From an uncultured Methanobrevibacter sp. (lineage in GTDB: Archaea > Methanobacteriota > Methanobacteria > Methanobacteriales > Methanobacteriaceae), in NCBI GenBank assembly GCA_900318035.1, contig ONJC01000002.1, forward strand, positions 62,001-126,000: a DNA stretch of 64,000 bases. The letters run 5' to 3'. Below are positions 43,379 to 59,375 of the stretch, in pieces. Made by a program: the position numbers and the translations under genes. The notes beneath the pieces are model-generated. The model was not told the DNA's origin. It worked only from the letters and a program-made list of their open reading frames with translations, and made no database searches. The number at the start of each line of letters is the position of its first letter. Within the stretch, counting starts at the first letter, position 1.

Positions 43379-45262
43379 TTAATAATTCACACTAGAGTAT
43401 TCCAAATTAATCAATCCATGATAATATAGGAGTGTCTTAAGCACATCCTTAATGAAAACTTCCAGATTGTCCTCTTCGACATCATCATTTCCCGGAGTCA
43501 GTGAAAATGCTCCAACAGACGGGATTACCATATCCGATTCGTTGAATCTTCGGGTTATGTTTCCCGGATACAGCACATAAGACCCCTCGGTTTTTAAGAT
43601 TGAATCCTTATAGGTGTGCATCTTATAAATGTCACCGTCTTTGAAAATATAATCCTTTTCCTCCTGTGAATCTCTTCTGTCAATTTCCTCATCCAACTCA
43701 TCATCTGAGGTTTTATCGATTTTTGAGTAGAAATCTGATATTTCAAGTTCGGATCTGTATTTTGCATCGAAATGAATATAGTGAGTTTCACCGCCGACAG
43801 TAACCAGCAGAGTGTAGTCCGGGCGGAATGCAAGGGAATATGACCTGTATTGGGAGTTTTCTGAAAATCTCAAATTATAAAACAAGTCTATCTCAATTTC
43901 ATGGCCTTTCAGGATTAGTTTAAAGTGCTTTGCAGATTCAACACCTCTTTTAATTCCTATTGACCAGTTGCCCCTGTTGATTATGAAAACATCCTCAAAA
44001 TTGATTTTTTTAATACTTAAATCATTTAAAACTTTCAATAGCTTGAAATAACACCAATATTCATATAATTCAGACAGTTTCTTTTCAAAACCCTTAAACT
44101 GATTGTTAACTTCATCCCAGCTCAATCTGAATGAGAATTCAAGCATTAAAAAGTAATGGAAAATTTCCCTGTATCCCTCCTTTTTCTGAAGGATCTGTGA
44201 GTTGAACGGGACATAATCCATTGATGAAATATGGTTGAAGAACTTGCTTGAGATATAATACTCGATTTCATCTCTAAAGTACAATAGCTTATCGTTAATG
44301 TAGCCTTCTGGAGAATTGGCGCTCAATTTTTCTATTAAGCTTTGAATAAGTTCTAAAAAGTATTTGAAAAATCTGTTTTCGGGAATGTCAATGATATCCT
44401 CATGTTTGACCTGCTCTATCTCATGAGGAAGATATCCATTTAATTTTCTGGAAATTTCCAAATCCGAATCTGTCTTGAACAGCTTATTCGACCTGGCAAT
44501 AATATTTTTCAAGGTATTCTGATTAACGTTTGAAGCAAGTGAAATCGGAACTGTTTCAACATGATTTTTAAGCTGAGAATGCAGGTTTTTGGACAGATAT
44601 TCAAATATTGACGGCAGATTATCCTGCCTGAAGAGATACTCCAAAAACATGAAGTCCTCATAAAATGTTTCCTTATCTCTGTAATCAAGTTCAAATTCCT
44701 GATACAGTGGAGAATTGACTTCAAAAATCAGACTTAATGCCTGTTGTGACAAATCGGCAATCATTGATGAGTACTGGTTGAAATAATCTATTTTTTTGGA
44801 CCTGACCTCAATTGGAATCCTAACAGATTCAACACCGTTTTTTCTAACGTCTAAAAATGACTTTCCAACATAGCTTCTGAAGTTTAGGGTTCCGGCTATC
44901 TTATACCTTTTATTGTCTCCCAAATCGAATCTGAATTGCCTGAAATGATTGTCATTCATTTTTGTTAAAGAATACAAGACATCGTATATTGCATTAACGT
45001 CATCCGATTCGAACAGTACCTGATATTCAGTCTCTTCCAAAAACATCAGATTTGCAAAATTAGAATCGGGATTTTGCCAATATTGAATTGGGGTCAGGTT
45101 ATCCGGCTCATCCACTAATGGAATATTGCTCAATGTTATTGAATCCGAAATGTTAATGTTGGATTCATTATCCGAATAATAATCAATCGAACTGACGCTT
45201 AAAACTCCCAAATCATTTGAATCAACATCAGTTAAATGGACAATAATATTCTGTTCAATCAT
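43379..45262 (-). CDS. mcrC: McrC-like restriction subunit (DUF2357 plus PD-(D/E)XK nuclease)
   Basis: The protein has 627 residues; AAGGAT precedes the ATG. The N-terminal 350 residues correspond to the DUF2357 region that docks on McrB-type rings. The C-terminal part has a PD-(D/E)XK nuclease core: FRPDYTLLV near residue 480 supplies the Asp, and FDAKYR near 496 supplies the Asp-x-Lys. The order and 9-base spacing after the McrB-like gene are as in McrBC-type, modification-dependent restriction systems, where the GTPase ring moves DNA and this subunit cuts. The target modification is unknown here. Confidence 0.85.
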   Translation of the reverse strand: MIEQNIIVHLTDVDSNDLGVLSVSSIDYYSDNESNINISDSITLSNIPLVDEPDNLTPIQYWQNPDSNFANLMFLEETEYQVLFESDDVNAIYDVLYSLTKMNDNHFRQFRFDLGDNKRYKIAGTLNFRSYVGKSFLDVRKNGVESVRIPIEVRSKKIDYFNQYSSMIADLSQQALSLIFEVNSPLYQEFELDYRDKETFYEDFMFLEYLFRQDNLPSIFEYLSKNLHSQLKNHVETVPISLASNVNQNTLKNIIARSNKLFKTDSDLEISRKLNGYLPHEIEQVKHEDIIDIPENRFFKYFLELIQSLIEKLSANSPEGYINDKLLYFRDEIEYYISSKFFNHISSMDYVPFNSQILQKKEGYREIFHYFLMLEFSFRLSWDEVNNQFKGFEKKLSELYEYWCYFKLLKVLNDLSIKKINFEDVFIINRGNWSIGIKRGVESAKHFKLILKGHEIEIDLFYNLRFSENSQYRSYSLAFRPDYTLLVTVGGETHYIHFDAKYRSELEISDFYSKIDKTSDDELDEEIDRRDSQEEKDYIFKDGDIYKMHTYKDSILKTEGSYVLYPGNITRRFNESDMVIPSVGAFSLTPGNDDVEEDNLEVFIKDVLKTLLYYHGLINLEYSSVNY

Positions 45263-45271
45263 TTTAAATCC

Positions 45272-47059
45272 TTAATTTATAAATGAAACATACCTTTGGT
45301 CTGACAATACTTTAGACATGCTTTGAAGCTTGACTGCTGAAGTGTAATATCTGCAATTGTCTCTGTTAATGTTGGCGTTTTTAGGATTTACATTTTCGTT
45401 TCTATCAACCAGACACATGTTGAATAAATTAGTTAAGACATTTCCGATAGCTTTTTCAGAGCCATGCAGTTTCGGAAGGATTTTCTGTTTGATTTGGGCA
45501 TCAAAATACCTCTCCCAGTTCTGCCAGTCATCAGGAGAGTTTTCATATCTCCATGCAACCACCATGAACCTTAAGATTTCATTGATTACCCTGAATCCGA
45601 AGTCGAATCCGGAACCCTGAAGGGATTCCTGAAATGCAGTTAGCTCCACAGCCAAAGTAAGCCATAAATTATCATCATTGAATGATATGTTAGTAAAAAT
45701 CTCCTTTAAATCCTGAATGTTAAGACTTGAAATGTCTGAATCAACCAATGGAGATTGCAGATAGTCAATATTGCCTTCAAAATCATTTGAATCAGGATCA
45801 GACACCATATACTCCCAGGCATGCAAGGTATCAAATTCAATCGTATTTGCCCTGTCCAAAACTTTTGGAGAAAACATGTAAGTAGTTTCATCAACATTAA
45901 CAGTGCCTATTATAAAAAGATTATCCGGAAGCTTTAAGGTCTTTTCTTCACCATACAGAGGAATTTCCTCGCCACTTTCAATCGCTGATAAAAAGTCTGC
46001 GAAATACCTTTCGACATGCGATAGGTTCATTTCATCCAAGATCAGGAAATACGGATTTTCAAGGTCTTCCTGAGCCTTTTTGATTAAATCATAAGCAGGA
46101 GTTGACTGATAATCTTCTGTGATTACATTATAATAACCTACAATGTTAGTGTTGTCCGTCCAGTTGGCTCCTACCGGAACTATTATGTATTTTGATTCGT
46201 TTAAAAGAGACTCCAATGATTCAATCTTTCGTGCTTTTGAACATTTCCAATTTGAGATAAAATCTTCAAAATCAAATTGGGTGATGTTTAATTCAACATC
46301 TACTTCTTTACCGTCATTTTCTTTTAAATAATCCTGCAACCTATTATTTTTTTTAAATGTAATTTTAGGAGTAATTCGAATTCTTGCAGATGATTTCATA
46401 CCATCAACCATAATATTACAACTAGAATAACCAGAATCAAAAGGATAATAATTAAAAATATTTTTATGTGCAAACCATTGTCTTTTTTCATAAGCAGATT
46501 GATTAGATTTTTGTTTTAGTAAAATTTTGCCATTAGGTTGAATATAATCTTTTGAAATAAAATCCTTTATATCATCACATAAAATCTTCAGTTCCGCAAA
46601 TCCATTTGGGTTTTGTTCATACAAGTTTTTAAAATGATCCTTAATTTCATCATTATCATAATATAATTGGACTAAAACTTTAATATTTCCTTTTGCTGGA
46701 ATCCCATCAACAAACATGTCAAATTTAGCTCCGCATTCATTGATTGGAATAATATCTGATAATTCTTCTTTAGGTAAAGTCCAACCATTATTTTCCCATG
46801 AAGAGTAATTAGTTTTAACTTTTAATGTGAAAAAACCGTCATCATCTACATTAGATTGCATTTGAATTAAGTCTCCTGAAATATACTGTGCGAATAATTG
46901 AGACAATTTAGTTTTTCCAGTTCCAGAATTTCCAGTTAAAATTTCAAAAGGCTTAACTTTTAAGGATAAAAGATAATTTTCTATTAACTCTTTTTCGAAG
47001 TAATATCCATTTGATATTAAATATTTATAAAATGATTCAACCTGTGATTTATTTGACAT
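45272..47059 (-). CDS. mcrB: McrB-like AAA+ NTPase with duplicated domain inserted in the motor
   Basis: The protein has 595 residues; an AGGT-type site precedes the ATG. Walker A is GNSGTGKT at 43-50, Walker B FLILDEMN at 338-345, then GTVNVDETT and KVLDRANTIEF (384-409), which are the McrB-family sensor and arginine-finger regions. Unlike E. coli McrB, which has its DNA-reading domain before the motor, about 230 residues (65-290) interrupt the AAA+ fold between Walker A and the next strand. This insert is a tandem duplication: LKVKTNYSSWENNGW (79-93) lines up with LKQKSNQSAYEKRQW (181-195), and MFVDG (115-119) with IMVDG (216-220). It probably recognises DNA (inference). Operon with the McrC-like gene. 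Confidence 0.85.
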   Translation of the reverse strand: MSNKSQVESFYKYLISNGYYFEKELIENYLLSLKVKPFEILTGNSGTGKTKLSQLFAQYISGDLIQMQSNVDDDGFFTLKVKTNYSSWENNGWTLPKEELSDIIPINECGAKFDMFVDGIPAKGNIKVLVQLYYDNDEIKDHFKNLYEQNPNGFAELKILCDDIKDFISKDYIQPNGKILLKQKSNQSAYEKRQWFAHKNIFNYYPFDSGYSSCNIMVDGMKSSARIRITPKITFKKNNRLQDYLKENDGKEVDVELNITQFDFEDFISNWKCSKARKIESLESLLNESKYIIVPVGANWTDNTNIVGYYNVITEDYQSTPAYDLIKKAQEDLENPYFLILDEMNLSHVERYFADFLSAIESGEEIPLYGEEKTLKLPDNLFIIGTVNVDETTYMFSPKVLDRANTIEFDTLHAWEYMVSDPDSNDFEGNIDYLQSPLVDSDISSLNIQDLKEIFTNISFNDDNLWLTLAVELTAFQESLQGSGFDFGFRVINEILRFMVVAWRYENSPDDWQNWERYFDAQIKQKILPKLHGSEKAIGNVLTNLFNMCLVDRNENVNPKNANINRDNCRYYTSAVKLQSMSKVLSDQRYVSFIN

Positions 47060-47423
47060 GATAAAAACCTACCAACTTTTACTAAATGACAACAATTTTA
47101 TGAAATGAAAGCAATTCTTCATAATTAATACAAGTTATATATAACAAGATATTAAAAAATGTCGATCGTTATCAAATGAAGAGGCCAATACTAACAATTA
47201 ATATATATTGTAAATCCGATGACATTAACGGCTAGAATTGGCAAATTCCAACTGAAAATTTATGTGGATATATATCCCCAAAAGAAAACAAGTCTAAAAA
47301 TCAAAATAGCTGCCGTTAATGTAAAAAACACAAAAATAAAATAAAAAACAAACCAAAACTGCAAAATTTAAGGAAGGTAATTGTAATTTAAACAAACTAC
47401 AATACCTCAAAACTAATTGAAAA
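47060..47423. other. Region upstream of the McrB-like gene
   Basis: 364 bases with no gene. It contains copy A of the ATTAACGG element and AT-rich DNA on both sides, and should include the McrB/McrC promoter. Confidence 0.5.
47222..47322 (+). repeat. ATTAACGG element, copy A
   Basis: 101 bases bounded by ACATTAACGGC and GCCGTTAATGT (11-base inverted ends, one base apart from perfect overall register) with a central GGATATATATCCCC. The AT-rich flank after the right end is also shared with the other copies. Confidence 0.8.
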
Positions 47424-48404
47424 TCAAGGATTCAAAGTATACAAATTAATTTTTCTCTGAATTGTACTGTCTATTCCCCTTCCATTATCAATCCAGACCT
47501 GTACATAATCTCCTTTTTTTGATTGCATATCTTTTGGAAGAGTATTAACAGCCATGTGAATAGGATATATTCCATACTGTTTTCCAACGACGAAGGCGAA
47601 TGCCCTATACTTCTTATTGTTTTTAGCAGTAATCAGCTTCACATACTTGCCATAGCTCATCTTACAGCTGTATTTGCCTGCCTTAAATGTATAATAGCTT
47701 TTAGCCTTTTTTATATAAACATTTGAGGATTTGGTTTTTGTCTTATAGTTTTTAGAGCTGAAGGTGGCCTTATATGCGTATGTTTTCGCCTTTGTAAGTT
47801 TCACCTTCTTAACGGCAACACCATTTTTAACCTTAACGCTGTATGTTTTGCCGTTAATACTGAATTTTACAGTTCCCACACAGACAGGACTATAAAATTC
47901 ATCCTTAACAGTGGCTTTTAAAGTGGCATAATTCTTTGTTGTTGAAATCCATTTATGTGCAGTCAGCATTACAGGCGCTTTTGTGATTTTAACATTTATC
48001 GTTACCGGTTTGATTTTATATGAATCCTTAAAGACGTCTGATACCTTTATGGTTGCCTTATAGTTTCCAACACCCGCATCAACATATCCGTATCCATGAT
48101 TGAAATTTGCAAGATACGTGGCCTGGCCTATTAGACGGCTGGTGTTATTGTCAACAACGTCAAAATCTATATTCCCCTCCACCACATCACTTGGCTGCAG
48201 TTCAAAATATAACTCATCATCAGACATATAGTGTGCAGTGTAATTCTCTGCAGTTACAATTTCTGCATCATATTCTTCTTTTATATCCCCCAGATTAGTT
48301 CCATCACTTTCCATTGTCACATTTTCATTTGCACTGACCATTCCAATGCTTAAAGATAACAACATTAAAAGTGAAGCCAAAACAACGAAATTTTTTAAAT
48401 TCAT
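47424..48404 (-). CDS. Secreted Ig-like protein with C-terminal Tyr/Lys domain
   Basis: The protein has 326 residues. Signal peptide 1-25 (MNLKNFVVLA to VSAN). Residues 40-140 hold an Ig-like module (VGNYKATIKV), 145-230 a Lys-rich Ig module (GTVKFSINGKTYSVKVKNG), and 235-326 a compact domain starting YTFKAGKYSCKMSYGKYVKL. That start matches the small secreted domain also present in three neighbours. There is no C-terminal anchor. ATTAACGG element copy B lies 36 bases upstream of the ATG and may supply or control its promoter. Function unknown. Confidence 0.75.
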   Translation of the reverse strand: MNLKNFVVLASLLMLLSLSIGMVSANENVTMESDGTNLGDIKEEYDAEIVTAENYTAHYMSDDELYFELQPSDVVEGNIDFDVVDNNTSRLIGQATYLANFNHGYGYVDAGVGNYKATIKVSDVFKDSYKIKPVTINVKITKAPVMLTAHKWISTTKNYATLKATVKDEFYSPVCVGTVKFSINGKTYSVKVKNGVAVKKVKLTKAKTYAYKATFSSKNYKTKTKSSNVYIKKAKSYYTFKAGKYSCKMSYGKYVKLITAKNNKKYRAFAFVVGKQYGIYPIHMAVNTLPKDMQSKKGDYVQVWIDNGRGIDSTIQRKINLYTLNP

Positions 48405-48439
48405 GATAAAAAGTATATAATTTGATGTTAAAATAGTTT

Positions 48440-48541
48440 ACATTAACGACCGGAATTTGCAAATTCCAACTGAAAATTTAATGGGGATATATATCCCCAT
48501 TGAAAAACAATTCTAAAAATCAAAAAGCTTGCCGTTAATGT
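48440..48541 (+). repeat. ATTAACGG element, copy B
   Basis: 102 bases with ACATTAACG and CGTTAATGT ends and a perfect central GGGGATATATATCCCC (48483-48498). Directly upstream of the leftward secreted-protein gene. Confidence 0.8.
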
Positions 48542-48696
48542 AAAAAACACTAAAATAAAATGAAAAAACAACTAAAACCATGAATTTAAAGAAAGGCAAC
48601 CGTGATTTAAAATCGTTAATGTTGATAAAAACTAATTGTTGCAATCTACAAAAACACTAAAAAAATAATTAAAGAGTTACAGATTGTAACCCCCTG

Positions 48697-49389
48697 CTAA
48701 TTACCCCCACTATCCGTAGTGGTTTCAACATTGCTTGCACTACTACTCTCTGAACTTGAACTCTGACTAGATTGAGACTGTGAATCATCAGAATAATATC
48801 TACTACTATCCGAACTGGAGTCATCATATCCGTTCCAATAGCTTTCCTGACGAGCTCTGTTCATATCTTCCTGAGTATACTTCTTGTCATCACCATTATT
48901 GGAATTATCTTTATTATCAGCGTTATTGTTACTTACTGCAACGCTGCTGCTTGCGGTGTCATTGGTCTTGTTGTTTGTGCCGTCAAAATGAACCGTGAAG
49001 TTTGCCAGGGCATCATTGCTTCCAACATTATCATAAAAGCTTACCACCGCATATGAAGGAGTTCCGTCAACTACAGCACCAAGACCGTTTCCTACACTGA
49101 TTTCAGATCCTTTTTCAAGATCCCTCATGTTCCAGGCACATGGAGCCTTGCCTATTATTGTGCCGTGTTCATCATAAAATACTATCCGTGCCTCCATATA
49201 TGCATAATCCTTTTCAGGCGTGATGTGGCCCTGAAGCTTGTATATCCCAAATTCATCCTGCTTAATGTTTAAATCATCAACCTGAAGGGTCTGCTGGCTT
49301 TGGCTTAAAAATCCGGAAGCCAATACTGCAAAGAGTATGACAACCACGACCACCAATACCACGATTATTGCCGTTTTCTTTGAATCCAT
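48697..49389 (-). CDS. N-terminally anchored protein with FxLYD-like domain
   Basis: The protein has 230 residues; GGTGAAATA precedes the ATG. MDSKK and a hydrophobic helix (6-27) form an uncleaved anchor. Residues 35-135 resemble the FxLYD family of extracytoplasmic domains (YKLQGHITPEKDYAYMEARI, then DLEKGSEISV). After this comes a long Asn/Asp/Ser/Gln-rich tail with YWNGYDDSSS. It belongs to the same head group as the genes at 42937 and 50707. It lies upstream of the secreted protein at 47424-48404 with the ATTAACGG element between them. Function unknown. Confidence 0.72.
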   Translation of the reverse strand: MDSKKTAIIVVLVVVVVILFAVLASGFLSQSQQTLQVDDLNIKQDEFGIYKLQGHITPEKDYAYMEARIVFYDEHGTIIGKAPCAWNMRDLEKGSEISVGNGLGAVVDGTPSYAVVSFYDNVGSNDALANFTVHFDGTNNKTNDTASSSVAVSNNNADNKDNSNNGDDKKYTQEDMNRARQESYWNGYDDSSSDSSRYYSDDSQSQSSQSSSSESSSASNVETTTDSGGN

Positions 49390-49559
49390 TATTTCACCAC
49401 TCTGATATTATCTATAGAAATTCAAGGATTAATAACTTTTGAGTTTACTCTTGATTTTGAAGAGATTTAATTTTGCGTTCATGAGGCGTTTTTAGAAAAA
49501 ATGATTTAAACCATTAACATCAAACTATCAAATAACACTAAAGAAAATGAGGAATAACA

Positions 49560-50444
49560 ATGAAAAAGCTGAATATTTTCTTAATCATATTGATTTTCTG
49601 TGTTATTTTCAGCATATCAAGTGTTGCTGCAAGTGATTTGAACGACACTTCAATAGCTAATACCATAGAAAACAACCCAGACACGCAGGATACAACTTTA
49701 CAAGCATATGATAAAAGTTTGGAAGACAAATACACAGAAACTTATAAAGAGCCGACTAAAGTAACTGTAAAAACCATTTCCGGAAAGGAAAAATCAAAAG
49801 CCAATGTCAAGGTAAATGTCAAAACAGATTCAAACACCCCTGTTTCCGGAGTTAAAGTAAATTTAAAGATTGACGGGAAAACATATCATGGAAAAACCAA
49901 TTCACTAGGCATTGCAAAAATAAACGTTAAAATCCCTAAAACAGACATCTATAAAGTATCTTCAAAAATCAAGAACAACAAAGTAACCAAAACAACAAAA
50001 TACAAAAAAACCTATAATTGCATAGCAAGCGTTGAGGGAAATGACAACTATGACTCCAGTTCAGCAAAATTTAAGGTGATTTCCAAGAAAAACAATAAGA
50101 TTCAAAAATATAAAATCATTAAAAAGCAAATAAAAACAATAACAATACCATATAAACAGTGGGGAATTCGAAAAAAAGTTTCAGGCCATTATAGATTCGC
50201 TATCGTTCATGATGAGCTTGAAGTAAATAAAATAAGCATTTTAGTAGGAGATGCAATCCTACAGAAATTTATCAAATTTTCATCAAAAGTATTTTACAAG
50301 AACAATGGTAAGAACGTCTATATTCCAAGTAACAAGTGGCTTAACAGCAAACGTTCTAGCGACATCCATGAATATCGCTACACAGGTGAAGCTAAAATGT
50401 ATGTAACCATCAAATACAATGCATACACTTTTAAAAAGATTTAG
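49560..50444 (+). CDS. Secreted Lys-rich Ig-like protein
   Basis: The protein has 294 residues; GAGGA lies upstream of the ATG. Signal peptide 1-23 (MKKLNIFLII to VAAS). Residues 60-165 are one Ig-like module with the PVSGVKVNLKIDGKTYHGKT and SLGIAKINVKIPKT phrases. Residues 170-294 are a basic, Tyr-rich domain (YKQWGIRKKVSGHYRFAIVHDEL) without a recognised family. The whole protein is strongly basic, so electrostatic binding to the wall or to DNA/polyanions outside the cell is possible (inference). The only rightward gene in this cluster. Confidence 0.7.
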   Translation: MKKLNIFLIILIFCVIFSISSVAASDLNDTSIANTIENNPDTQDTTLQAYDKSLEDKYTETYKEPTKVTVKTISGKEKSKANVKVNVKTDSNTPVSGVKVNLKIDGKTYHGKTNSLGIAKINVKIPKTDIYKVSSKIKNNKVTKTTKYKKTYNCIASVEGNDNYDSSSAKFKVISKKNNKIQKYKIIKKQIKTITIPYKQWGIRKKVSGHYRFAIVHDELEVNKISILVGDAILQKFIKFSSKVFYKNNGKNVYIPSNKWLNSKRSSDIHEYRYTGEAKMYVTIKYNAYTFKKI

Positions 50445-50483
50445 TGAAAATAGGATAAAAATAATATTCTTAAAGGGTTTACT

Positions 50484-50585
50484 ACATTAACGGTCGAAAT
50501 TTCACTAATTTAGCCTAAAAATTAGTGGGGATATATATCCCAATAGAAAAACAGGTTTAAAAATCGAAATGCTTGCCGTTAATGT
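50484..50585 (+). repeat. ATTAACGG element, copy C
   Basis: 102 bases with ACATTAACGG and CCGTTAATGT ends and central GGGGATATATATCCC. It sits between two convergent genes, so it cannot be a promoter for either. Confidence 0.8.
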
Positions 50586-50706
50586 AAACAACTATAAAAT
50601 AAAATTAAAAAAACAACACCTCAATAACTTTAACAGAGAATCATTTCCATAAATTCAAAAAAAAGAAAAATGCATGGCTAAATCGCCATGATATTTGCTG
50701 ATTTAA

Positions 50707-51309
50707 CTATACCATTCCTGTTGGAGGAACATTTTCATAGAACTGCCTTGCACCTTCATAGTCATAGTCTGAAGTAACACCGTTTTTAGATCTCACATCC
50801 AAATCCCTTTGGATATATGCATCTATTTCCTCATCCGTCAAACCTGAAGCATGTGTTTTTGGCTCTGAATTTGATGAAGTATCTTGTGTGCTGGAGGCAG
50901 GAGTAACTTCAGCCGCCTTTTCTTCAATAGTTATATTTTTGGAAGTTGAATTTGCAGTGAAATTGTCATTTCCTCCAAAAGTCACATTAACAGAGTATTT
51001 ACCCGGTTTCAAATCCAAATCAACACTGGCCTTACCTTTGGAATTTGTCTTAACAGATTCATTTACAACAACCTTTCCGTCTTTATCAGTGACTGTTACA
51101 TTGACAGCGCCCTTTCCAATAGGAGTCTTATTCAAATCAGTCAGCTTTACTGTTAAATTATCCCCCTCATGCAAAGTTTTATTGCCCACAATAGCTATTT
51201 TAGAGTCCTTTTGAGCATTCAATGACGGCATAAACATTGAACCCAAAATAACCCCCAAAACAACAACTACAATCACCAAAAGAACAATTATGATATTTTT
51301 AGTTTCCAT
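50707..51309 (-). CDS. N-terminally anchored Ig-like protein
   Basis: The protein has 200 residues; GGAGGT precedes the ATG. METKN plus a hydrophobic helix (6-27) is an uncleaved anchor. Residues 38-130 are one Ig-like module (NLTVKLTDLNKTPIGKGAVN, GKYSVNVTFGGNDN). A Ser/Thr/Glu linker and a conserved-looking tail (GLTDEEIDAYIQRDLDVRS, QFYENVPPTGMV) follow. It starts 15 bases after the stop of the secreted protein gene at 51325-52146 and is surely co-transcribed with it. Same head group as the genes at 42937 and 48697. Confidence 0.75.
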   Translation of the reverse strand: METKNIIIVLLVIVVVVLGVILGSMFMPSLNAQKDSKIAIVGNKTLHEGDNLTVKLTDLNKTPIGKGAVNVTVTDKDGKVVVNESVKTNSKGKASVDLDLKPGKYSVNVTFGGNDNFTANSTSKNITIEEKAAEVTPASSTQDTSSNSEPKTHASGLTDEEIDAYIQRDLDVRSKNGVTSDYDYEGARQFYENVPPTGMV

Positions 51310-51324
51310 TTTTAAACCTCCATT

Positions 51325-52146
51325 TTACCAGACACTGTAGCGGTTATAAACACCTCTTGTGCTTCTAAGGCTGGATTTTTTTAATTTGGTAAAATCGGCA
51401 CTGCACCTGCATTTGCCGAAGTATTTGCTGTCACTGCCAAGGACTTTACCCGGACCGTCATAAGAACGGTCATAGGTTTCATAATAATGTGTTAAAAATA
51501 CCATATGCCTATAAGCAACGCCACATTGTCCCTGACCATATGCAAACATCATATAAACACGGGATTTTTTATAGCAAACCTTGTTTCGCATTTTAAGTTT
51601 TACCTTAACGTATTTATTAGTTTTAAGCATGAAATTTTTTCTCAATCCACTGCTTGTTATGTCATAACCCCTGAATTTCTCTCCCACATAATAATAGCTA
51701 TTATAACCTTCATCAAAGAATTTATCTTCAGTGCTTGAAATCATATAAAGTTTTTTATACTGATATGGAGTCAAAACTGCTTTAAACCTTCCTATTGAAA
51801 ATGTCCTTTCCTTTTTGGTAGGCTCCTTATAATAGCTTGAAGCAAGAGGAGTCACTGTTACTGTTGTGTTTAAAACATCGTTTGTAAGAGGAACCGCCAA
51901 AGTTTCATTCCCATCAGCCATTCCAAGAATCTGTCCGTCATCCACATTATTAGAGGAATTTTCACTGACCACACTTACCGCTTCACTTTCGCTTGAAGCG
52001 GAGAGGTTGTCAATTTCCTGCTGGTTTTGGCCCATCAAATCGCAAGCCTGCTCTTTTACAATGTCCGTGCCGTTTTCAGCTGCACTGACGCCGGATATGG
52101 CCAGAGCGAAAATCAGACCTAAAATAAGAATATATCTCTTTTTCAA
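51325..52146 (-). CDS. Secreted protein with Tyr/Arg/Lys-rich C-terminal domain
   Basis: The protein has 273 residues. I choose the TTG at 52146 because GGGTGG lies 5 bases upstream; the GTG at 52155 would overlap that site. Signal peptide 1-23 (KKRYILILGLIFALA to VSAA), then an acidic linker, then a 160-residue basic domain starting FSIGRFKAVLTPYQYKKLYM. That motif recurs in the neighbours at 42087, 47424 and 55957. It has several Cys (CYKK, GQCG, CRC), unusual in this protein set. First gene of a two-gene operon with the anchored Ig-like protein. Function unknown. Confidence 0.73.
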   Translation of the reverse strand: MKKRYILILGLIFALAISGVSAAENGTDIVKEQACDLMGQNQQEIDNLSASSESEAVSVVSENSSNNVDDGQILGMADGNETLAVPLTNDVLNTTVTVTPLASSYYKEPTKKERTFSIGRFKAVLTPYQYKKLYMISSTEDKFFDEGYNSYYYVGEKFRGYDITSSGLRKNFMLKTNKYVKVKLKMRNKVCYKKSRVYMMFAYGQGQCGVAYRHMVFLTHYYETYDRSYDGPGKVLGSDSKYFGKCRCSADFTKLKKSSLRSTRGVYNRYSVW

Positions 52147-52219
52147 TCGTACCACCCATAAGTTGTATTAATCCTATGTTTATTTAAGGCTTATAATAAA
52201 TATTTCTAAATGAATCGCA

Positions 52220-52320
52220 ACATTAACGGTGAAAATAACAAAATTCAGTCTAAAAATTAGTGGGGATATATATCCCCATAAAAAAACAGATTTAAAAATC
52301 GAAATGCCCGGCGTTAATGT
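52220..52320 (+). repeat. ATTAACGG element, copy D
   Basis: 101 bases with ACATTAACGG and CGTTAATGT ends and a perfect central GGGGATATATATCCCC (52262-52277). It lies about 75 bases upstream of the leftward secreted-protein start. Confidence 0.8.
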
Positions 52321-52390
52321 AAAAACCGCAAGATTAAAATGAAAGAGACCAAAAAAAGTTCAATTAAAATCAGAAAAAATATGGAGGATT

Positions 52391-52415
52391 AAAAGCATGA
52401 AAAAATCATGCCTTT
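52391..52415 (-). terminator. Hairpin after the LPATG protein gene
   Basis: AAAGCATGA and TCATGCCTTT pair around a short A-rich loop, about 30 bases past the stop. A very similar hairpin follows the second LPATG gene at 63544-63571, so this 3' flank is conserved between paralogues. Confidence 0.55.
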
Positions 52416-52442
52416 AACAAAAAATGAATAAAAAGATAAGTC

Positions 52443-52868
52443 TTATTTTTTTCTGTATAATGATGCACCGCCGAGAACAGCACATACTGCCAATAATGCT
52501 ATGAGAGGATTACCGGTTGCAGGTAAGCTGTGAATTGCAGTTGCATTGGTTGCGTTGGTTGTGTTTAAAACATTACTGCCTGCAGCATGAGCAGTTGCAT
52601 TGGTTGTGTTAACTGCTGTCTGGTTTTGAGCGGTATCATTCAAATTAGGTGAATCAGTCATGTTTAATGATCTTTGAGTTCCGTCGAAAAGGTCGTTCAT
52701 TCCGCTTTCATCCACTTCAACATCATCATAAGGATAATCGTTGCCAATATCATCATGAGTATCGTTGAACCCCATTACATCGTCTCCGTCAGCTGCACTT
52801 ACTGCGCATACTGAAAAAATTACACAGAATATTATCATTATTGCGAATAATTTGCTTTTAAATTCCAT
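52443..52868 (-). CDS. Small LPATG-type wall-anchored protein
   Basis: The protein has 141 residues. AGGTGAT lies 4 bases before the ATG at 52868. Signal peptide 1-25 (MEFKSKLFAIMII to VSAA). The middle is acidic and Asn/Thr-rich. The C-terminus has LPATGNP, a hydrophobic helix and RKK, which is the sortase sorting-signal layout (LPxTG, membrane helix, basic tail). Sortase homologues are known from Methanobacteriales; none is in this window. Paralogue of the gene at the right edge (both share HAAGS and NTT phrases before the LPATG). A perfect palindrome plus TATA box lies upstream. Probable cell-wall linked protein. Confidence 0.75.
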   Translation of the reverse strand: MEFKSKLFAIMIIFCVIFSVCAVSAADGDDVMGFNDTHDDIGNDYPYDDVEVDESGMNDLFDGTQRSLNMTDSPNLNDTAQNQTAVNTTNATAHAAGSNVLNTTNATNATAIHSLPATGNPLIALLAVCAVLGGASLYRKK

Positions 52869-52960
52869 CACTATCACCTCATTATTGAATTAATTTGAAA
52901 TGTAGCCACTGATTTTTTTGATTTGACACATCTCTGCACAAGTAAATATATGAATAAGAC

Positions 52961-53022
52961 CATATATAAAGTTTTTCGAATGCAAGTACTCACTTGCATC
53001 TTAAAAAATAAAATAAAGCAAT
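52961..53022 (-). promoter_or_regulatory. Palindromic operator plus BRE/TATA of the LPATG gene
   Basis: On the minus strand the perfect palindrome with arms ATGCAAGT/ACTTGCAT (52980-52999) is followed by CGAAAAAC (BRE-like) and TTTATATA (52963-52970); transcription should start near 52940. The block matches 18234-18310. Confidence 0.6.
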
Positions 53023-53114
53023 TAAATAATGAATTTAAAAGATTGAATAATTTTAAAGTCTTAAATTGGATATTAACTATTAAACATCATGAGATTTCAC
53101 ACGAACATATGTTA

Positions 53115-53150
53115 AAAAAAAGGCCTGTAAAATTCTATAGACCCAAAAAA
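53115..53150 (-). terminator. Probable terminator of the beta-helix/Ig protein gene
   Basis: An imperfect stem (GGTCTATA with TACAGGCC) ends in an eight-T run on the minus strand. A similar sequence lies after the ATA-start gene (55258-55290). Confidence 0.4.
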
Positions 53151-53215
53151 AGAAAATGTGTAAAGGCAGCATTACCTTTACATTTTAGTGTTCTGTTTAT
53201 TGAACTATCATAACA

Positions 53216-55144
53216 TCATCTGTATAGGGCTCTCTCATCGAAACACGGTTTATAATAATCATTTCCAGCGAATTTGAATATTATTGTACCGTATAATACC
53301 GGAACATATGACATTACGCCGGAAGTAATCTCATATAGCAGGTCTCCGTCTGGAGAATATATTCCTATTTTTTGATTTTTTAACTCCTTATCTCCGGCAT
53401 ATAGATAGAATACACCATCACCGCCCACTATTGTGTCTGCCGCATATCTATAGGTAAAGAGGTCATTCTTGATAAAAGTTGAACTTTTACTCTTAATAAT
53501 TTTTACAGAACTTTTAGCAGAACCCTCATTATATTTGGAAGTTCCCTTAACATTTACAAGGACTTTGTGAGAGGCGATGCTTAAAGATTTAGTGGAAATG
53601 CTTGCTGTTCCTTTAGTATTTGTTTTAGTGGCGAATATTTTATATTTTTTACCTGTATAAACTTTAAAAGTTACTTTAATTCCACCCATGCCTTTTCCGG
53701 ATTCCTTGTTTTTGACACTGACCTTAAATGTTCCTGATTTATAAACATTGACAACTTTTGGCGCCAATAATGTTATGGCCGCTTTAGAAACTTTAACTGA
53801 ACTTTCCTTTGATGACCCGCTTACATCTTTAGAATTTGGACTAACAACGATTTTATGAGTGCCTAAAGCTAATTTTGATGTGGAATACTTTGCAATACCA
53901 TTTGAAGCAGTAGTTACAGTAACTTTCCTATATTTTTTACCTGTATAAACTTTTAAAGTGAGTTTTACACCAGGCAGCGCATTGTTAGTTTTAGTATTTA
54001 CCACTTTTATCTGGAAATACTTTCCGGATGCATAAGTAGTTGATAATTTTGTTGGAGTGATACTGACAGGTGCTTTGACAATCTTTATAGAATCCATTTT
54101 GACGGAATCAACTTCAAAATTTTCAGTAGTCACTGATATTGTTGCGCTATATGTTCCAACTCCAAATGGAACTGAATAAGTTGCTACACCACCAGAATTT
54201 GTTTTAAGTTTTGCAGATTTGCCATTGGAAAATGTTATAAGAATTTCGGCATTTTCAATAGCTTTGCCTTCAGAAGATAAAAACTTGGCAGTTAACATTT
54301 TTTCATTATAATAATTTTTTGAAGACTGTGAAACCACAAGATTTCCCTTAGTCAGCATAGTGCAATTATTTAATTCAGCCTCCCATGTTTGCAAATATGA
54401 ATTATATAAAAACAAACAATTTGATGCAGATCCGCCATACATTGCACCACCTTTATCAGGAGCATAATTCTGCCTAAAAATACAGTCAAATGCTTCAACA
54501 TGATAAGTTGCACCGCCACTGATATAACCCGTACCATCTACAGAATTTTCTATAAAAGTACAGTTTTTAGCTGTGCCAAAAGCCATAGCGCCTCCGGCAT
54601 GAGCGAAATTATTAATGAATGTGCAATTTATTGCATCACCATTACAAATAGCTCCACCGCATACCTTTTCAGAACTATTGCCATTGTTAATAAAAGTACA
54701 ATTTATGGAAGTTCCACCACTAACTGCACTTCCATCACAACCTACACCATTAATAAATACCACATTTTTTATATAAACAGAACCCTTTGTATCAATGCCT
54801 ATAATTCCGGACAGCTGCCGAGCATCCAATACAGCCCCATTGCCTTCAATCGTTAATGATTTTCCAATACTGATACCGGATCCTTTCCCAGTATAATTGC
54901 CTAAGAGGACTACGGTGTCTCCCGCTTCTGCATTATCAATTGTGTTTTGAATATCCGCAAATGTATTGCCACTTACATTATGAGTTGTTGACAACGTATC
55001 TTCTTGAATTACTTCCAAATTTTCATCAATGACTGTTTCGCCCATAACTTCATCAGTTGAGTTAAAATCTGCTGCACTCACTGCAGAGATTGTAAGTAAA
55101 GTTAAAATGAAAATAGTCATGAACATGAATTTTTTGTTTAACAA
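53216..55144 (-). CDS. Secreted beta-helix/Ig-like surface protein
   Basis: The protein has 642 residues. I choose the TTG at 55144: GGGGAT lies 6 bases upstream and the product then begins with a regular signal peptide (LNKKFMFMTIFILTLL to VSAA). The ATGs at 55126 and 55120 lack a site, and the longest frame (55198) starts with non-signal sequence. Residues 50-300 form a parallel beta-helix (KSLTIEGNGAVLDARQ, CTFINN coils, GGAICNGDAINC). Three Ig-like modules with the phrase KVYTGKKY follow (300-560), then an unassigned C-terminal domain (DLFTYRYAADTIVGGDGVFY). Surface protein by architecture. Confidence 0.8.
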   Translation of the reverse strand: MLNKKFMFMTIFILTLLTISAVSAADFNSTDEVMGETVIDENLEVIQEDTLSTTHNVSGNTFADIQNTIDNAEAGDTVVLLGNYTGKGSGISIGKSLTIEGNGAVLDARQLSGIIGIDTKGSVYIKNVVFINGVGCDGSAVSGGTSINCTFINNGNSSEKVCGGAICNGDAINCTFINNFAHAGGAMAFGTAKNCTFIENSVDGTGYISGGATYHVEAFDCIFRQNYAPDKGGAMYGGSASNCLFLYNSYLQTWEAELNNCTMLTKGNLVVSQSSKNYYNEKMLTAKFLSSEGKAIENAEILITFSNGKSAKLKTNSGGVATYSVPFGVGTYSATISVTTENFEVDSVKMDSIKIVKAPVSITPTKLSTTYASGKYFQIKVVNTKTNNALPGVKLTLKVYTGKKYRKVTVTTASNGIAKYSTSKLALGTHKIVVSPNSKDVSGSSKESSVKVSKAAITLLAPKVVNVYKSGTFKVSVKNKESGKGMGGIKVTFKVYTGKKYKIFATKTNTKGTASISTKSLSIASHKVLVNVKGTSKYNEGSAKSSVKIIKSKSSTFIKNDLFTYRYAADTIVGGDGVFYLYAGDKELKNQKIGIYSPDGDLLYEITSGVMSYVPVLYGTIIFKFAGNDYYKPCFDERALYR

Positions 55145-55257
55145 ATTAATATCCCCATAATCATTTTTTAAATATTTCAATAAAAATATGTTTATCAATT
55201 ATATATAATATAACTTCCCATCAAGTCTCAAAACTAAAAATAAGCATTTTTTTATGA

Positions 55258-55290
55258 AAATGAGTCTGTAAAATTTTATAGGCTTAAAAA
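55258..55290 (-). terminator. Hairpin after the ATA-start gene
   Basis: AGTCTGTA and TATAGGCT pair with two wobbles around AAATTT. It is related to the sequence at 53115-53150. Confidence 0.4.
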
Positions 55291-55310
55291 AAGAAAAAAA
55301 TGTAGAAAAA

Positions 55311-55733
55311 TTATTTCCTACGAATAAAAGGACAAATACCTATTGCTGCAATAGCTGCAACTAATATTACTAAAGGATTACCGGTTGCATTAGCATTAGC
55401 GCTTGCTGTTTTTGCATTATCGCTACTTCCTGCTGCATTTCCAGCATCACTTGAATTGTCTGGTGAGTCTGCCAAAGCAGTTGCTTCATTAGATGTTAAT
55501 TCACCATGACGATAAGGATTGTCCCCTACATCAAGGTCTTCTTCATCTTCCAGGTCTTCATCGTCTGTTTCATCACCAGTGACATCGTCATCATCTGTGG
55601 TATTTTCCAGAGATGTATCATCAGCATCATCATCAGCAGCGATTACAGCATCAGTAGTGTCTGCTGCAGAAACAAAGCTTACGCTTAAAAGGACAATGAA
55701 AATTGCCAGGATTGCAAAAATTCCTTTGTTTAT
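55311..55733 (-). CDS. LPATG-family paralogue with ATA start and degenerate sorting signal
   Basis: The frame encodes about 140 residues: signal peptide (NKGIFAILAIFIVLL to VSAA), an acidic Asp/Glu stretch, an Asn/Ser/Ala linker and a C-terminal ATGNP, hydrophobic helix and IRRK. The layout is that of the LPATG proteins at 52443 and 63597, but LP has been replaced by NANATG. There is no Met codon, GTG or TTG in frame; a TAA lies 9 codons upstream. The strong site GGGGGTGAT stands 3 bases before an ATA that aligns with the expected ATG. So translation either starts at ATA (rare) or the gene has just lost its start codon. It could equally be called a young pseudogene. Confidence 0.6.
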   Translation of the reverse strand: MNKGIFAILAIFIVLLSVSFVSAADTTDAVIAADDDADDTSLENTTDDDDVTGDETDDEDLEDEEDLDVGDNPYRHGELTSNEATALADSPDNSSDAGNAAGSSDNAKTASANANATGNPLVILVAAIAAIGICPFIRRK

Positions 55734-55956
55734 ATTATCACCCCCGTAAATAATATTTTACACAATCATATTTAAATGTTTATCAAGAAGCCTTAAAAAA
55801 TTAAAATTCCTGTGAGGATATCAAAAAGTGTAAAATTAAATCGCTTAAAAGATTGGGTAGAGTTAAAAGAATAGAAATTATAAAAAAAATAAAATTGATG
55901 GTGACATATAATTCCACACGAAATTATAATTATCACCACGTAGTTAAAACTTTAAA

Positions 55957-58900
55957 TCATTCAATTGCAATACCTTTAATTTTTAAAGTATCTCCATGTG
56001 CATACAGTTTAATTCCAGGTACCGGGAGTTCAGCAGGTTTATTCAATATTAATGCTTTAACAGGATATAATTTTGTTTTGTATGCAGTTTTATAGGATAC
56101 TTTTACCCATTTACATACTGCATAGGTGTATGCACTTAATCCTATACCATACCTGTTTTGAGGGTTTGCTTTGGTGTAGGTATATTCAGATACCAATGTC
56201 CAACCATTATCTTCCATTCTATTTATCATAGGCAAATAAGAACCCGCATACCATGTTTTTACAGCCTTAGTAGTCTTATAATGTTTAACTGTTTTAGTAT
56301 AAGGCACTTTAACTTTATATTTATAGTTAGTGACAATTTTAAGTGACTTATATTTTCCTTTATTGAATGCTTTAACTAATGATTTATATTGTTTTGATGA
56401 AAGTTTTATAGTATATTTACCTATTTTAATACTTTTGTTCTTTTTTAATATAGCCATATAAGTTTTAACTAATTTGACTTTGAAAGTCGCAGAACATCCT
56501 TTATAATTTTTATCTCCTGAAAATTTAAGACTGGCTTTATAAGTTTTAGCCTTTATAGGCATTTTAACATTCTTAAATACTGCCTTACCATTTTTAACAT
56601 TGGCCTTGTATGTTTTACCAGCTATTTTGAGTTTAGCAGTACCTCCGATGTTTTTACTGGAACCCGATTCATCAAAAACATATTGCTCCAAATTCTCTCT
56701 AGCCCCAATGAACTCTTCAAAGGATTTAGGATTAGTATGAGTTGGTGCTTTTTTGATTGCTATATTTGCTTTGGCCAATTCATTGCCGTTTTCATCAGCA
56801 ATTACTGCCTTGTAGGTTCCAACAGCATTTATTTCAGAACCCTCATAAGAATATTCATGTTTATCATAGGACATATAATCAGAAACATAACCATTTGTAT
56901 TTAATTCCTTTTCATATATTAGGCTGTTTCCTTTATATATTCTGAAATAACATTTCAAATTACCTTTCCAAGAGTAACTGATTTTGTTTTTACCGTTATA
57001 ATGACCAGTCATAGGTTTGACATATACATTCTTGTAATCATTTGCCACATAAACATTATTGACAGTAAGTTTCATCGTATTGGAAAGGCCGGCGTATTTT
57101 GTGGTAACTTCATAGGTGCCTGCTTTTAAATGAGTTTTAAAATATGCGTAACCCTGGCTATCACTAGTAGAAGTAAAATCCTTGCCATCGCAATTAAAGG
57201 TAACCTTTTGTCCTGAAACGAGTTTACCATCTTCAGAAATGCGAACCTTAAATTCAACATCACTTGTACAATTTCCCGCCACACCTATAAATTGAATATT
57301 TCTGTTATAAACAGTCAATTTGGCACTGCCCATTACATTTTTATCAAAATAATTTACAATTTTAATGGTGTAAACACCAGGATTTAAACTTTTAGCGCTC
57401 AAACTATATGATTTATAAGAAGCCGAGCTGGTATCTGAATACAGCTGAGAAATCTTCTCATTATTGCTTGAATCATAAACCTTCAAAAAATAATAGTAAT
57501 CATAAGAAGTACGGGAAGCGGGAGAAATCTTCATAGAAATAGAACCACTATACCCATAATTCACACTAACATCAGAAACACTGACAGAATAATCCGAAGA
57601 AGAAGGATACGTATTAGATTTAACAGTCAAATTAGCAGTATCCATCACATTTCCATCATAAAAATTAATAATCCTAATTTCATAAATTCCAGGACTTAAC
57701 TGAGTTGAATCCAAACTGTAGGTTTTAGAATAAGAAGAATCCCTACCAGAATACACCTGAGAAATCTTCTCATTATTGCTTGAATCATAAACATTCAAAT
57801 AATAATAATACTTATAAGAAGTACGAGAAGCAGGAGAAATCTTCATAGAAATAGAACCACTATACCCATAATTCACACTAACATCAGAAACACTAACAGA
57901 ATAATCCGAAGAAGATGGGCAATTAGAAGATTTAACAGCCAATTTAGCAGTATCCATCACATTACCATCAGCATAATTAATAATCTTTATATCATAAGCT
58001 CCCATGCTTAACTGATATGAACTCAAACTATATGTTTTAGAATAATCTGAACTTGTACTGTAATACAACTTAGAAATCTTTTCATTATTGTTTGAATCAT
58101 AAACCTTCAAATAATAATAATATTTATAATACGAACTAGCAGGAGAAATCTTCATAGAAATAGAACCACTATACCCATAATTCACACTAACATCAGAAAC
58201 ACTAACAGAATAATTCGAAGAAGACGGATAACTAGAAGATCTAACAGTCAATTTAGCAGTATCCATCACTTTACCATCAGCAAAATTAATAATCTTAATA
58301 TTATAAACTCCAGAACTTAACTGAGATGAACTCAAACTATATGTTTTAGAATATGAAGAACTAGAACTGTAATACACCTGAGAAATCTTCTCAATATTGT
58401 TTGAATCATAAACCTTCAAATAATAATAATACTTATAAGAAGTACGAGAAGCAGGGGAAATAATCATAGAAATGGAACCACCATTTCCATAAGTTATACT
58501 AACATCAGAAACACTAACAGAATAATCCGAAGAAGACGGATAACTAGAAGAATAACTAGAAGACTTAACAGTCAATTTAGCAGTATCCATCACCATACTA
58601 TCTTTATAATTCACCAACTTTATAGTATATGTTCCGGCACTCAATTTATTAGCCTGAATTGTATATTTATAGCTAGTTGATTTAGTTGAACTATATAAAT
58701 TTTGGCTAATCTTTTGATTGCCATTTGAATCATAAACCTTGAAGTAGAAATCATAGGCATAGTAAGCACTACTAGAAACTGGAGTAATATATATTGTTAC
58801 ACTTCCAGAGCTTCCAGCATTAATTGTAGTATCATAAACAGATAAAGAATATTTATCATATGATGGAGAACTTAAAGATAAAACATCATTATTGTCATCT

Positions 58901-59130
58901 ATGGAAACTTTTTCATCTCCACCAACGGCCAAAACATCCTTATCCTCACTCACATTATCATCATCACTTATCACTTCTTCTGTTTTTAAATTATCCGAAG
59001 AAGTGACTTCATTAATTTCAAAATCCGTGCTCGCAACATCATCAGTTAGATTATCTGCTGCAGAAACTGCTGAAAATGCAAATAAACCAACAATCAGGAT
59101 TGCAAGCACAATTATCTTTCTATTTGTCAA
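55957..59130 (-). CDS. Secreted protein with five roughly 104-residue repeats and Tyr/Lys C-terminal domain
   Basis: The protein has 1,057 residues. The start is a TTG at 59130 with a strong GGGAGGT 8 bases upstream. Signal peptide 1-25. Residues 90-610 are five tandem repeats of a Ser/Tyr-rich beta module (YSVSVSDVSVNYGYSGSIS, YYYYLKVYDS, MDTAKLTVKS); repeats 2-5 are very similar in DNA (309-312-base spacing). Ig-like modules follow (YAYFKTHLKAGTYEVTTKYA), then a Lys-rich Ig module and a C-terminal domain starting GKYTIKLSSKQYKSLVKAF. That last motif recurs in the small secreted proteins at 42087, 47424 and 51325. Function unknown; surface-exposed. Confidence 0.82.
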   Translation of the reverse strand: MTNRKIIVLAILIVGLFAFSAVSAADNLTDDVASTDFEINEVTSSDNLKTEEVISDDDNVSEDKDVLAVGGDEKVSIDDNNDVLSLSSPSYDKYSLSVYDTTINAGSSGSVTIYITPVSSSAYYAYDFYFKVYDSNGNQKISQNLYSSTKSTSYKYTIQANKLSAGTYTIKLVNYKDSMVMDTAKLTVKSSSYSSSYPSSSDYSVSVSDVSITYGNGGSISMIISPASRTSYKYYYYLKVYDSNNIEKISQVYYSSSSSYSKTYSLSSSQLSSGVYNIKIINFADGKVMDTAKLTVRSSSYPSSSNYSVSVSDVSVNYGYSGSISMKISPASSYYKYYYYLKVYDSNNNEKISKLYYSTSSDYSKTYSLSSYQLSMGAYDIKIINYADGNVMDTAKLAVKSSNCPSSSDYSVSVSDVSVNYGYSGSISMKISPASRTSYKYYYYLNVYDSSNNEKISQVYSGRDSSYSKTYSLDSTQLSPGIYEIRIINFYDGNVMDTANLTVKSNTYPSSSDYSVSVSDVSVNYGYSGSISMKISPASRTSYDYYYFLKVYDSSNNEKISQLYSDTSSASYKSYSLSAKSLNPGVYTIKIVNYFDKNVMGSAKLTVYNRNIQFIGVAGNCTSDVEFKVRISEDGKLVSGQKVTFNCDGKDFTSTSDSQGYAYFKTHLKAGTYEVTTKYAGLSNTMKLTVNNVYVANDYKNVYVKPMTGHYNGKNKISYSWKGNLKCYFRIYKGNSLIYEKELNTNGYVSDYMSYDKHEYSYEGSEINAVGTYKAVIADENGNELAKANIAIKKAPTHTNPKSFEEFIGARENLEQYVFDESGSSKNIGGTAKLKIAGKTYKANVKNGKAVFKNVKMPIKAKTYKASLKFSGDKNYKGCSATFKVKLVKTYMAILKKNKSIKIGKYTIKLSSKQYKSLVKAFNKGKYKSLKIVTNYKYKVKVPYTKTVKHYKTTKAVKTWYAGSYLPMINRMEDNGWTLVSEYTYTKANPQNRYGIGLSAYTYAVCKWVKVSYKTAYKTKLYPVKALILNKPAELPVPGIKLYAHGDTLKIKGIAIE
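57500..58760 (-). repeat. Tandem 309-312-base coding repeats
   Basis: The phrase catagaaatagaacc and its neighbours recur at 57532, 57844, 58153 and (with one change) 58465. Near-identical DNA in frame allows gain or loss of whole 103-104-residue modules. Confidence 0.75.
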
Positions 59131-59190
59131 AGAAATTTACCTCCCAAAAAAATATTCATTGATATATATTTGTGTTTAAATTAATATATA

Positions 59191-59268
59191 ACAATTGCTA
59201 ATTTATTAAAATTGGATATATCCCTAAACCAAAACACAACAAAAAACCGAAAAGCCTGCCGTTAATGT
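59191..59268 (+). repeat. ATTAACGG element, copy E (left end decayed)
   Basis: A GGATATATCCC core and an intact GCCGTTAATGT right end remain, with the shared right flank. The left inverted end is not recognisable. It lies between divergent genes. Confidence 0.6.
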
Positions 59269-59375
59269 AAAACACGGCCAAAATTAATGAAATTCAAATC
59301 CCAAAGTTCATTTAATTAAAGCAATACCCACAAAATAACGACCCTTTAATTACTATTAAAAACAAAGATTCAGAT

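Follow-up and report, generated by a model that had tools for sequence, protein, structure and literature searches.

The window analysed here, a stretch of 64,000 nucleotides from an uncultured Methanobrevibacter sp., carries four full copies (A to D) and one half copy (E) of an intergenic element, all members of a family of two-fold symmetric elements of about 106 bp. The copies and the genes between them are listed below; gene names outside the Pfam scan, here and throughout, are readings of the sequence.

47220..47325, + strand: element copy A (ends 47222-47231 and 47313-47322; core 47264-47279)
47424..48404, - strand: gene between A and B, secreted protein with an Ig-like domain (domain matches below the Pfam cut-off)
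48438..48544, + strand: element copy B (ends 48440-48449 and 48532-48541; core 48483-48498)
48697..49389, - strand: gene between B and C, no family assigned
49560..50444, + strand (opposite strand): gene between B and C, Ig-like, below the Pfam cut-off
50482..50588, + strand: element copy C (ends 50484-50493 and 50576-50585; core 50527-50542), with convergent genes on either side
50707..51309, - strand: gene between C and D; the G037 homologue (L071) has an element of its own in front of it
51325..52155, - strand: gene between C and D, whose homologue in G037 (L071) is likewise preceded by its own element
52218..52323, + strand: element copy D (ends 52220-52229 and 52311-52320; core 52262-52277)
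59214..59271, + strand: half element E, comprising core, right arm and right end (59259-59268)

Directly to the left of copy A, at 43379-47059, lies a two-gene restriction-like operon (DUF2357 with a PD-(D/E)XK nuclease, and an AAA protein), and the adhesin-like gene at 55957-59130 contains five repeats spaced 309-324 bp at 57289-58771. Past the left flank of copy D, the sister species G026 has a different gene.

Anatomy of the element

Copies A to D share 68-76% identity across about 150 bp, including an A-rich right flank. The earlier note on this DNA had described four full copies and a half copy with common ends and core in one orientation, and this arrangement is indeed present beyond chance: with up to 3 mismatches allowed, the window has 5 occurrences of the core where shuffles predict 0.12 (a single one of these, at 40181, lies outside the family), and 14 of the end motif where 2.8 are expected. 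Two details require amendment. The shared core is found in all copies but is not identical across them, because copy A has GTGGATATATATCCCC and copy C has GGGGATATATATCCCA; and the half copy, whose match is limited to the right half and right flank, starts near 59214 rather than at 59191, with homology to G026 beginning at the core (59214) and the sequence to the left being unrelated.

The layout of the element is TTnACATTAACG, an arm of 50 bp, [G/C]ATATATAT[G/C], an arm of 50 or 54 bp, and CGTTAATGTnAA. Among 109 copies the A arm measures 49-51 bp in 94, the centre is ATATATAT in 89 and a G or C stands on each side of it in 106; the lengths of the B arm cluster near 50 or at 53-54 bp. Conservation ends 3-4 bases outside GTTAATGT, giving a sharp border to ends of the form TTnACATTAACG. 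Facing pairs of end motifs have spacings sharply concentrated at 80-95 bp, and outward pairs show a small peak near 50 bp. These comparisons show, at the level of sequence, a fixed geometry in which three constrained blocks (two inverted ends and the [G/C]ATATATAT[G/C] centre) stand about 50 bp apart, with arms between them that evolve freely. Beside one full element elsewhere (L318:3907-4400) there is a small array of short inverted end-motif pairs about 40-65 bp apart.

Distribution, gain and constraint

Using a strict gapped pattern (CATTAAC, centre ATAT and GTTAATG at fixed distances), we found 22 copies in the host genome against 0 with a reversed-pattern control, and between 0 and 31 copies per genome across 66 related genomes of the genus; other genera gave 0 or 1 copy. 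A slightly stricter pattern, applied to 84,980 genomes, returned 73 stretches, all from Methanobrevibacter assemblies bar four, two of which (L287 and L329) are misbinned contigs with genes of Methanobrevibacter-type proviruses and two of which are chance matches in genes, unlike the family. Among these 84,980 genomes the element is found only in Methanobrevibacter and its tailed proviruses. A sequence-model search, whose counts include both strands of each copy, added further, more degenerate places, with almost none in G010, G011 and G034. On viral contigs, a scan with a loose core, a weak pattern, returned contigs mostly from unrelated metagenomes, and a stricter pattern gave two matches, both chance. 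A search confined to open literature turned up no account of the element.

The comparison of occupied with empty sites that the earlier note had put forward as a check could be made at four loci where relatives are without the element. At the SDR-HEAT locus the two genes are joined without an element in G029, G057, G053, G051 and G001, and in the host and G026 there are 158 additional bp, bordered on the right by the element end and including 53 more bases on the left; in the variant of G016 the left side has about 24 more bases. At the ftr locus the host and G026 have an element that is missing from G001, G048, G004 and G028, and at the glmS locus the host has one where G049 and G023 have none. 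At the fourth locus, between a gene for a 338-aa dehydrogenase-like protein and one for a hydrolase-like protein, the host has a 187-aa gene and an element, and G001 has neither. A further locus, L062, is too rearranged in relatives to display insertion borders. The empty sites in relatives indicate gain by insertion, either of an element by itself or of an element together with a gene.

All ten host sites tested hold an orthologous element in G026. Across these ten sites the host and G026 are identical at 157/160 positions in the ends, 96/100 in the core, 632/770 in the arms and 2582/2890 in the flanks, which include coding sequence; divergence is 2.7% of bases for ends and core together and 18% for the arms. 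The host copies had been picked for intact ends and core, and therefore about half of the expected changes are hidden; corrected for this selection, the excess conservation of ends and core has a P of about 4e-5 when the arms serve as reference and of about 0.03 when the flanks do. The contrast of 2.7% with 18% indicates that the three blocks are under selection and the arms drifting, and the nearly unchanged ends and centre suggest recognition by a protein. Thus the proposal of a dispersed family, gained by insertion and functionally constrained, is borne out by the 22 host copies, the empty sites and the conserved ends and core.

The same data bear on the possibility that a transposase acting in trans moved a MITE-like mobile element, some copies of which were co-opted afterwards. 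As with MITEs and REP-type palindromes, the element is short, non-coding, intergenic and many-copy, has terminal inverted repeats with a sharp border, is patchy in copy number and represents an insertion relative to empty sites. Unlike them, it has ends and a centre under selection at orthologous sites and a fixed internal geometry, including a conserved centre that a MITE would not need. No target-site duplication was seen at the few sites examined, among them SDR-HEAT, where just one border is the element end and the extra bases (53 or about 24) lie on the other side only, and no transposase stood out among the recurrent neighbour genes inspected. At the ten orthologous sites the copies do not show the neutral decay after insertion that marks a MITE, and G026 retains the element at every one of them. 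A strict MITE is not supported by these observations, and we consider the looser version, with later co-option, unlikely as well.

Position, orientation and cargo

Nearly all elements are intergenic (108/113), and for the 103 with both neighbours the gaps are tandem in 65, convergent in 31 and divergent in 7, so that convergent gaps are favoured and divergent gaps avoided; no conserved position upstream of start codons emerged among these 103 contexts. The earlier note had placed copies upstream of leftward genes and proposed that the core could serve as a TATA box with operator. That placement holds, yet A, B and D sit just as much on the downstream side of the next leftward gene, and with just 7 of 103 elements in divergent gaps and 31 in convergent ones the TATA-box proposal is not supported: gene positions are mixed in a way that argues against a promoter. 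Nor are the copies limited to promoters or to this region, two outcomes that had been named as fatal to the original idea, as the contexts are mixed and the host holds 22 copies.

A structured-RNA gene has been weighed together with a promoter and operator, since the core resembles a TATA box and folding gives a mean z-score of about -2.3 for either strand. This low energy seems attributable to the end stem by itself, and beyond that stem the fold differs from copy to copy. An Rfam scan of 46.5-60 kb gave no match near the copies and one weak, sub-threshold match elsewhere. A conserved RNA fold was rejected, there being no common fold among the copies, and with gene contexts that are not promoter-like we regard either explanation as hardly credible.

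Neighbouring elements form 22 direct, 0 inverted and 2 unclear pairs; a less clear-cut, profile-based call gave 16 pairs with the same and 3 with the opposite orientation, and agrees for 28/28 pairs at orthologous sites. Some of the direct pairs are tandem duplications, and pairs around unrelated cargo (L073, L075, L286, L298) are also direct. Orientation does not follow transcription. In proviruses with terminase, capsid and integrase genes the elements adjoin or bracket swapped cargo, for instance restriction systems (a MutH-type nuclease with a C5 methylase; GmrSD), FprA with TrmB, and MATE, and chromosomal elements often stand beside adhesin-like proteins and toxin-like modules. One provirus position holds a solitary element in L082; in L332 and L290 it carries 3.3-4.9 kb of cargo with an element on each side.

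Relatives switch between homologous and unrelated sequence at the element: where a pair of elements has any homologous flank, the homology is on one side in 77 pairs and on two in 15, several of these 15 being repeat retrievals of one locus. The breaks fall at either edge and sometimes at the core, as in half element E against G026, so there is no single crossover point; crossover at the core only was rejected, its cases being few and edge breaks commoner. Between a provirus integrase and the element, a 600-bp flank shared by L275 and L286 is 96% identical overall, and the 60 bp next to the element (L275:984-1043 against L286:1396-1455) differ at about one third of positions, mostly by transitions.

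Like provirus attachment sites, the element occurs in proviruses and chromosomes and lies near integrases in several proviruses. Unlike such a site, it is unrelated to the attachment repeat of the 50-kb G029 provirus, whose attL and attR are a different repeat of 38 bp at 399929 and 449680, and this candidate was rejected. That tailed provirus (G029:C1, about 399.9-449.7 kb; L339-L341, L082) carries as cargo a GmrSD-like gene and a gene for a 2273-aa protein.

The arrangement also recalls integron attC sites and their cassette arrays: an imperfect palindrome of about 100 bp with conserved inverted ends (AAC...GTT), in direct orientation, with accessory-gene cassettes between copies. The arms of an attC site would pair as a folded single strand; here the arms within a copy are not complementary, their own-arm similarity (0.38) being no higher than that between different copies (0.41), and this already largely refutes the reading. 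Unlike attC, the element further has a conserved [G/C]ATATATAT[G/C] centre, no shared fold, breaks at both edges, scattered solitary copies, and an archaeal host with its viruses. Neither does a matching integrase track it. The element-rich G019 (19 strict copies) has just one tyrosine recombinase, of about 365 aa and of a type present in nearly all genomes, element-poor ones included, rather than one of integron type; judged by eye, the number of tyrosine recombinases does not correlate with element count, and serine recombinases occur in 2/67 genomes and not in the host genome. An attC site is accordingly very improbable. In role the element is like the cassette sites of integrons and in dispersal like MITEs, but it fails defining features tested for each.

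A candidate site at cassette edges

Our preferred reading, to which we assign a probability of roughly 45%, is that the element is a site recognised by a protein, delimits cassettes of accessory genes in both Methanobrevibacter and its tailed proviruses, and is a candidate site of exchange. A symmetric protein complex on the three blocks represents the simplest reading of the fixed geometry and constrained blocks, and the action of such a complex we infer: a putative host or viral protein would bind the three blocks, two sites in direct orientation would form junctions where the DNA between them can be inserted, lost or exchanged for other DNA, and a copy standing alone would be an empty site or boundary, kept under selection through continued use by that protein. 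An exchange site would explain the orientation, the bracketing of cargo and the switching of homology. Against it we count that no candidate recombinase tracks the element, that the breaks in homology have no single crossover point and that solitary sites are stable between sister species, and the direct orientation is weaker as evidence for exchange because tandem duplication can partly produce it and the profile-based call was less uniform (16 against 3). It is doubtful, in our estimation, that these sites amount to an archaeal gene-exchange system, in which a candidate protein would load, swap and drop cassettes between Methanobrevibacter chromosomes and tailed proviruses at a three-block recombination site with an integron-like role and an unrelated site structure.

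Alternatively, the element might be a site for a regulatory or architectural protein (e.g., an insulator, or a roadblock to transcription, at the 3' ends of genes) that travels with the accessory genes that need it, recombination being a by-product of repeated sequence. A boundary or regulatory role would explain why ends and core are constrained in solitary copies that stay in place, and why the 3' ends of genes are preferred, as seen in the 31 convergent and 7 divergent contexts among 103, and breaks at both edges and the core are as expected from recombination through short shared blocks. Stoperators, the dispersed operator sites of phages, are short asymmetric repressor sites repeated in intergenic positions in temperate viruses; the element is like them a repeated intergenic site at operon edges in temperate viruses, and unlike them in its 106 bp, its three blocks and its abundance in the host chromosome. 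For a regulatory site it is odd that neighbouring copies are direct although orientation is independent of transcription, and absence from many genomes of the genus is odd for a core architectural site. We hold this alternative to be possible, and keep it as a tentative one.

Even if the protein-recognised site at cassette edges acts as a boundary, its strict geometry makes a candidate binding protein easy to search for, and the presence or absence of the element between close species permits a direct genetic test. If it is an exchange site, it would point to a DNA-binding or recombination protein new to archaea, and would offer a way into the trade in genes for defence, redox and surface functions between gut methanogens and their viruses.
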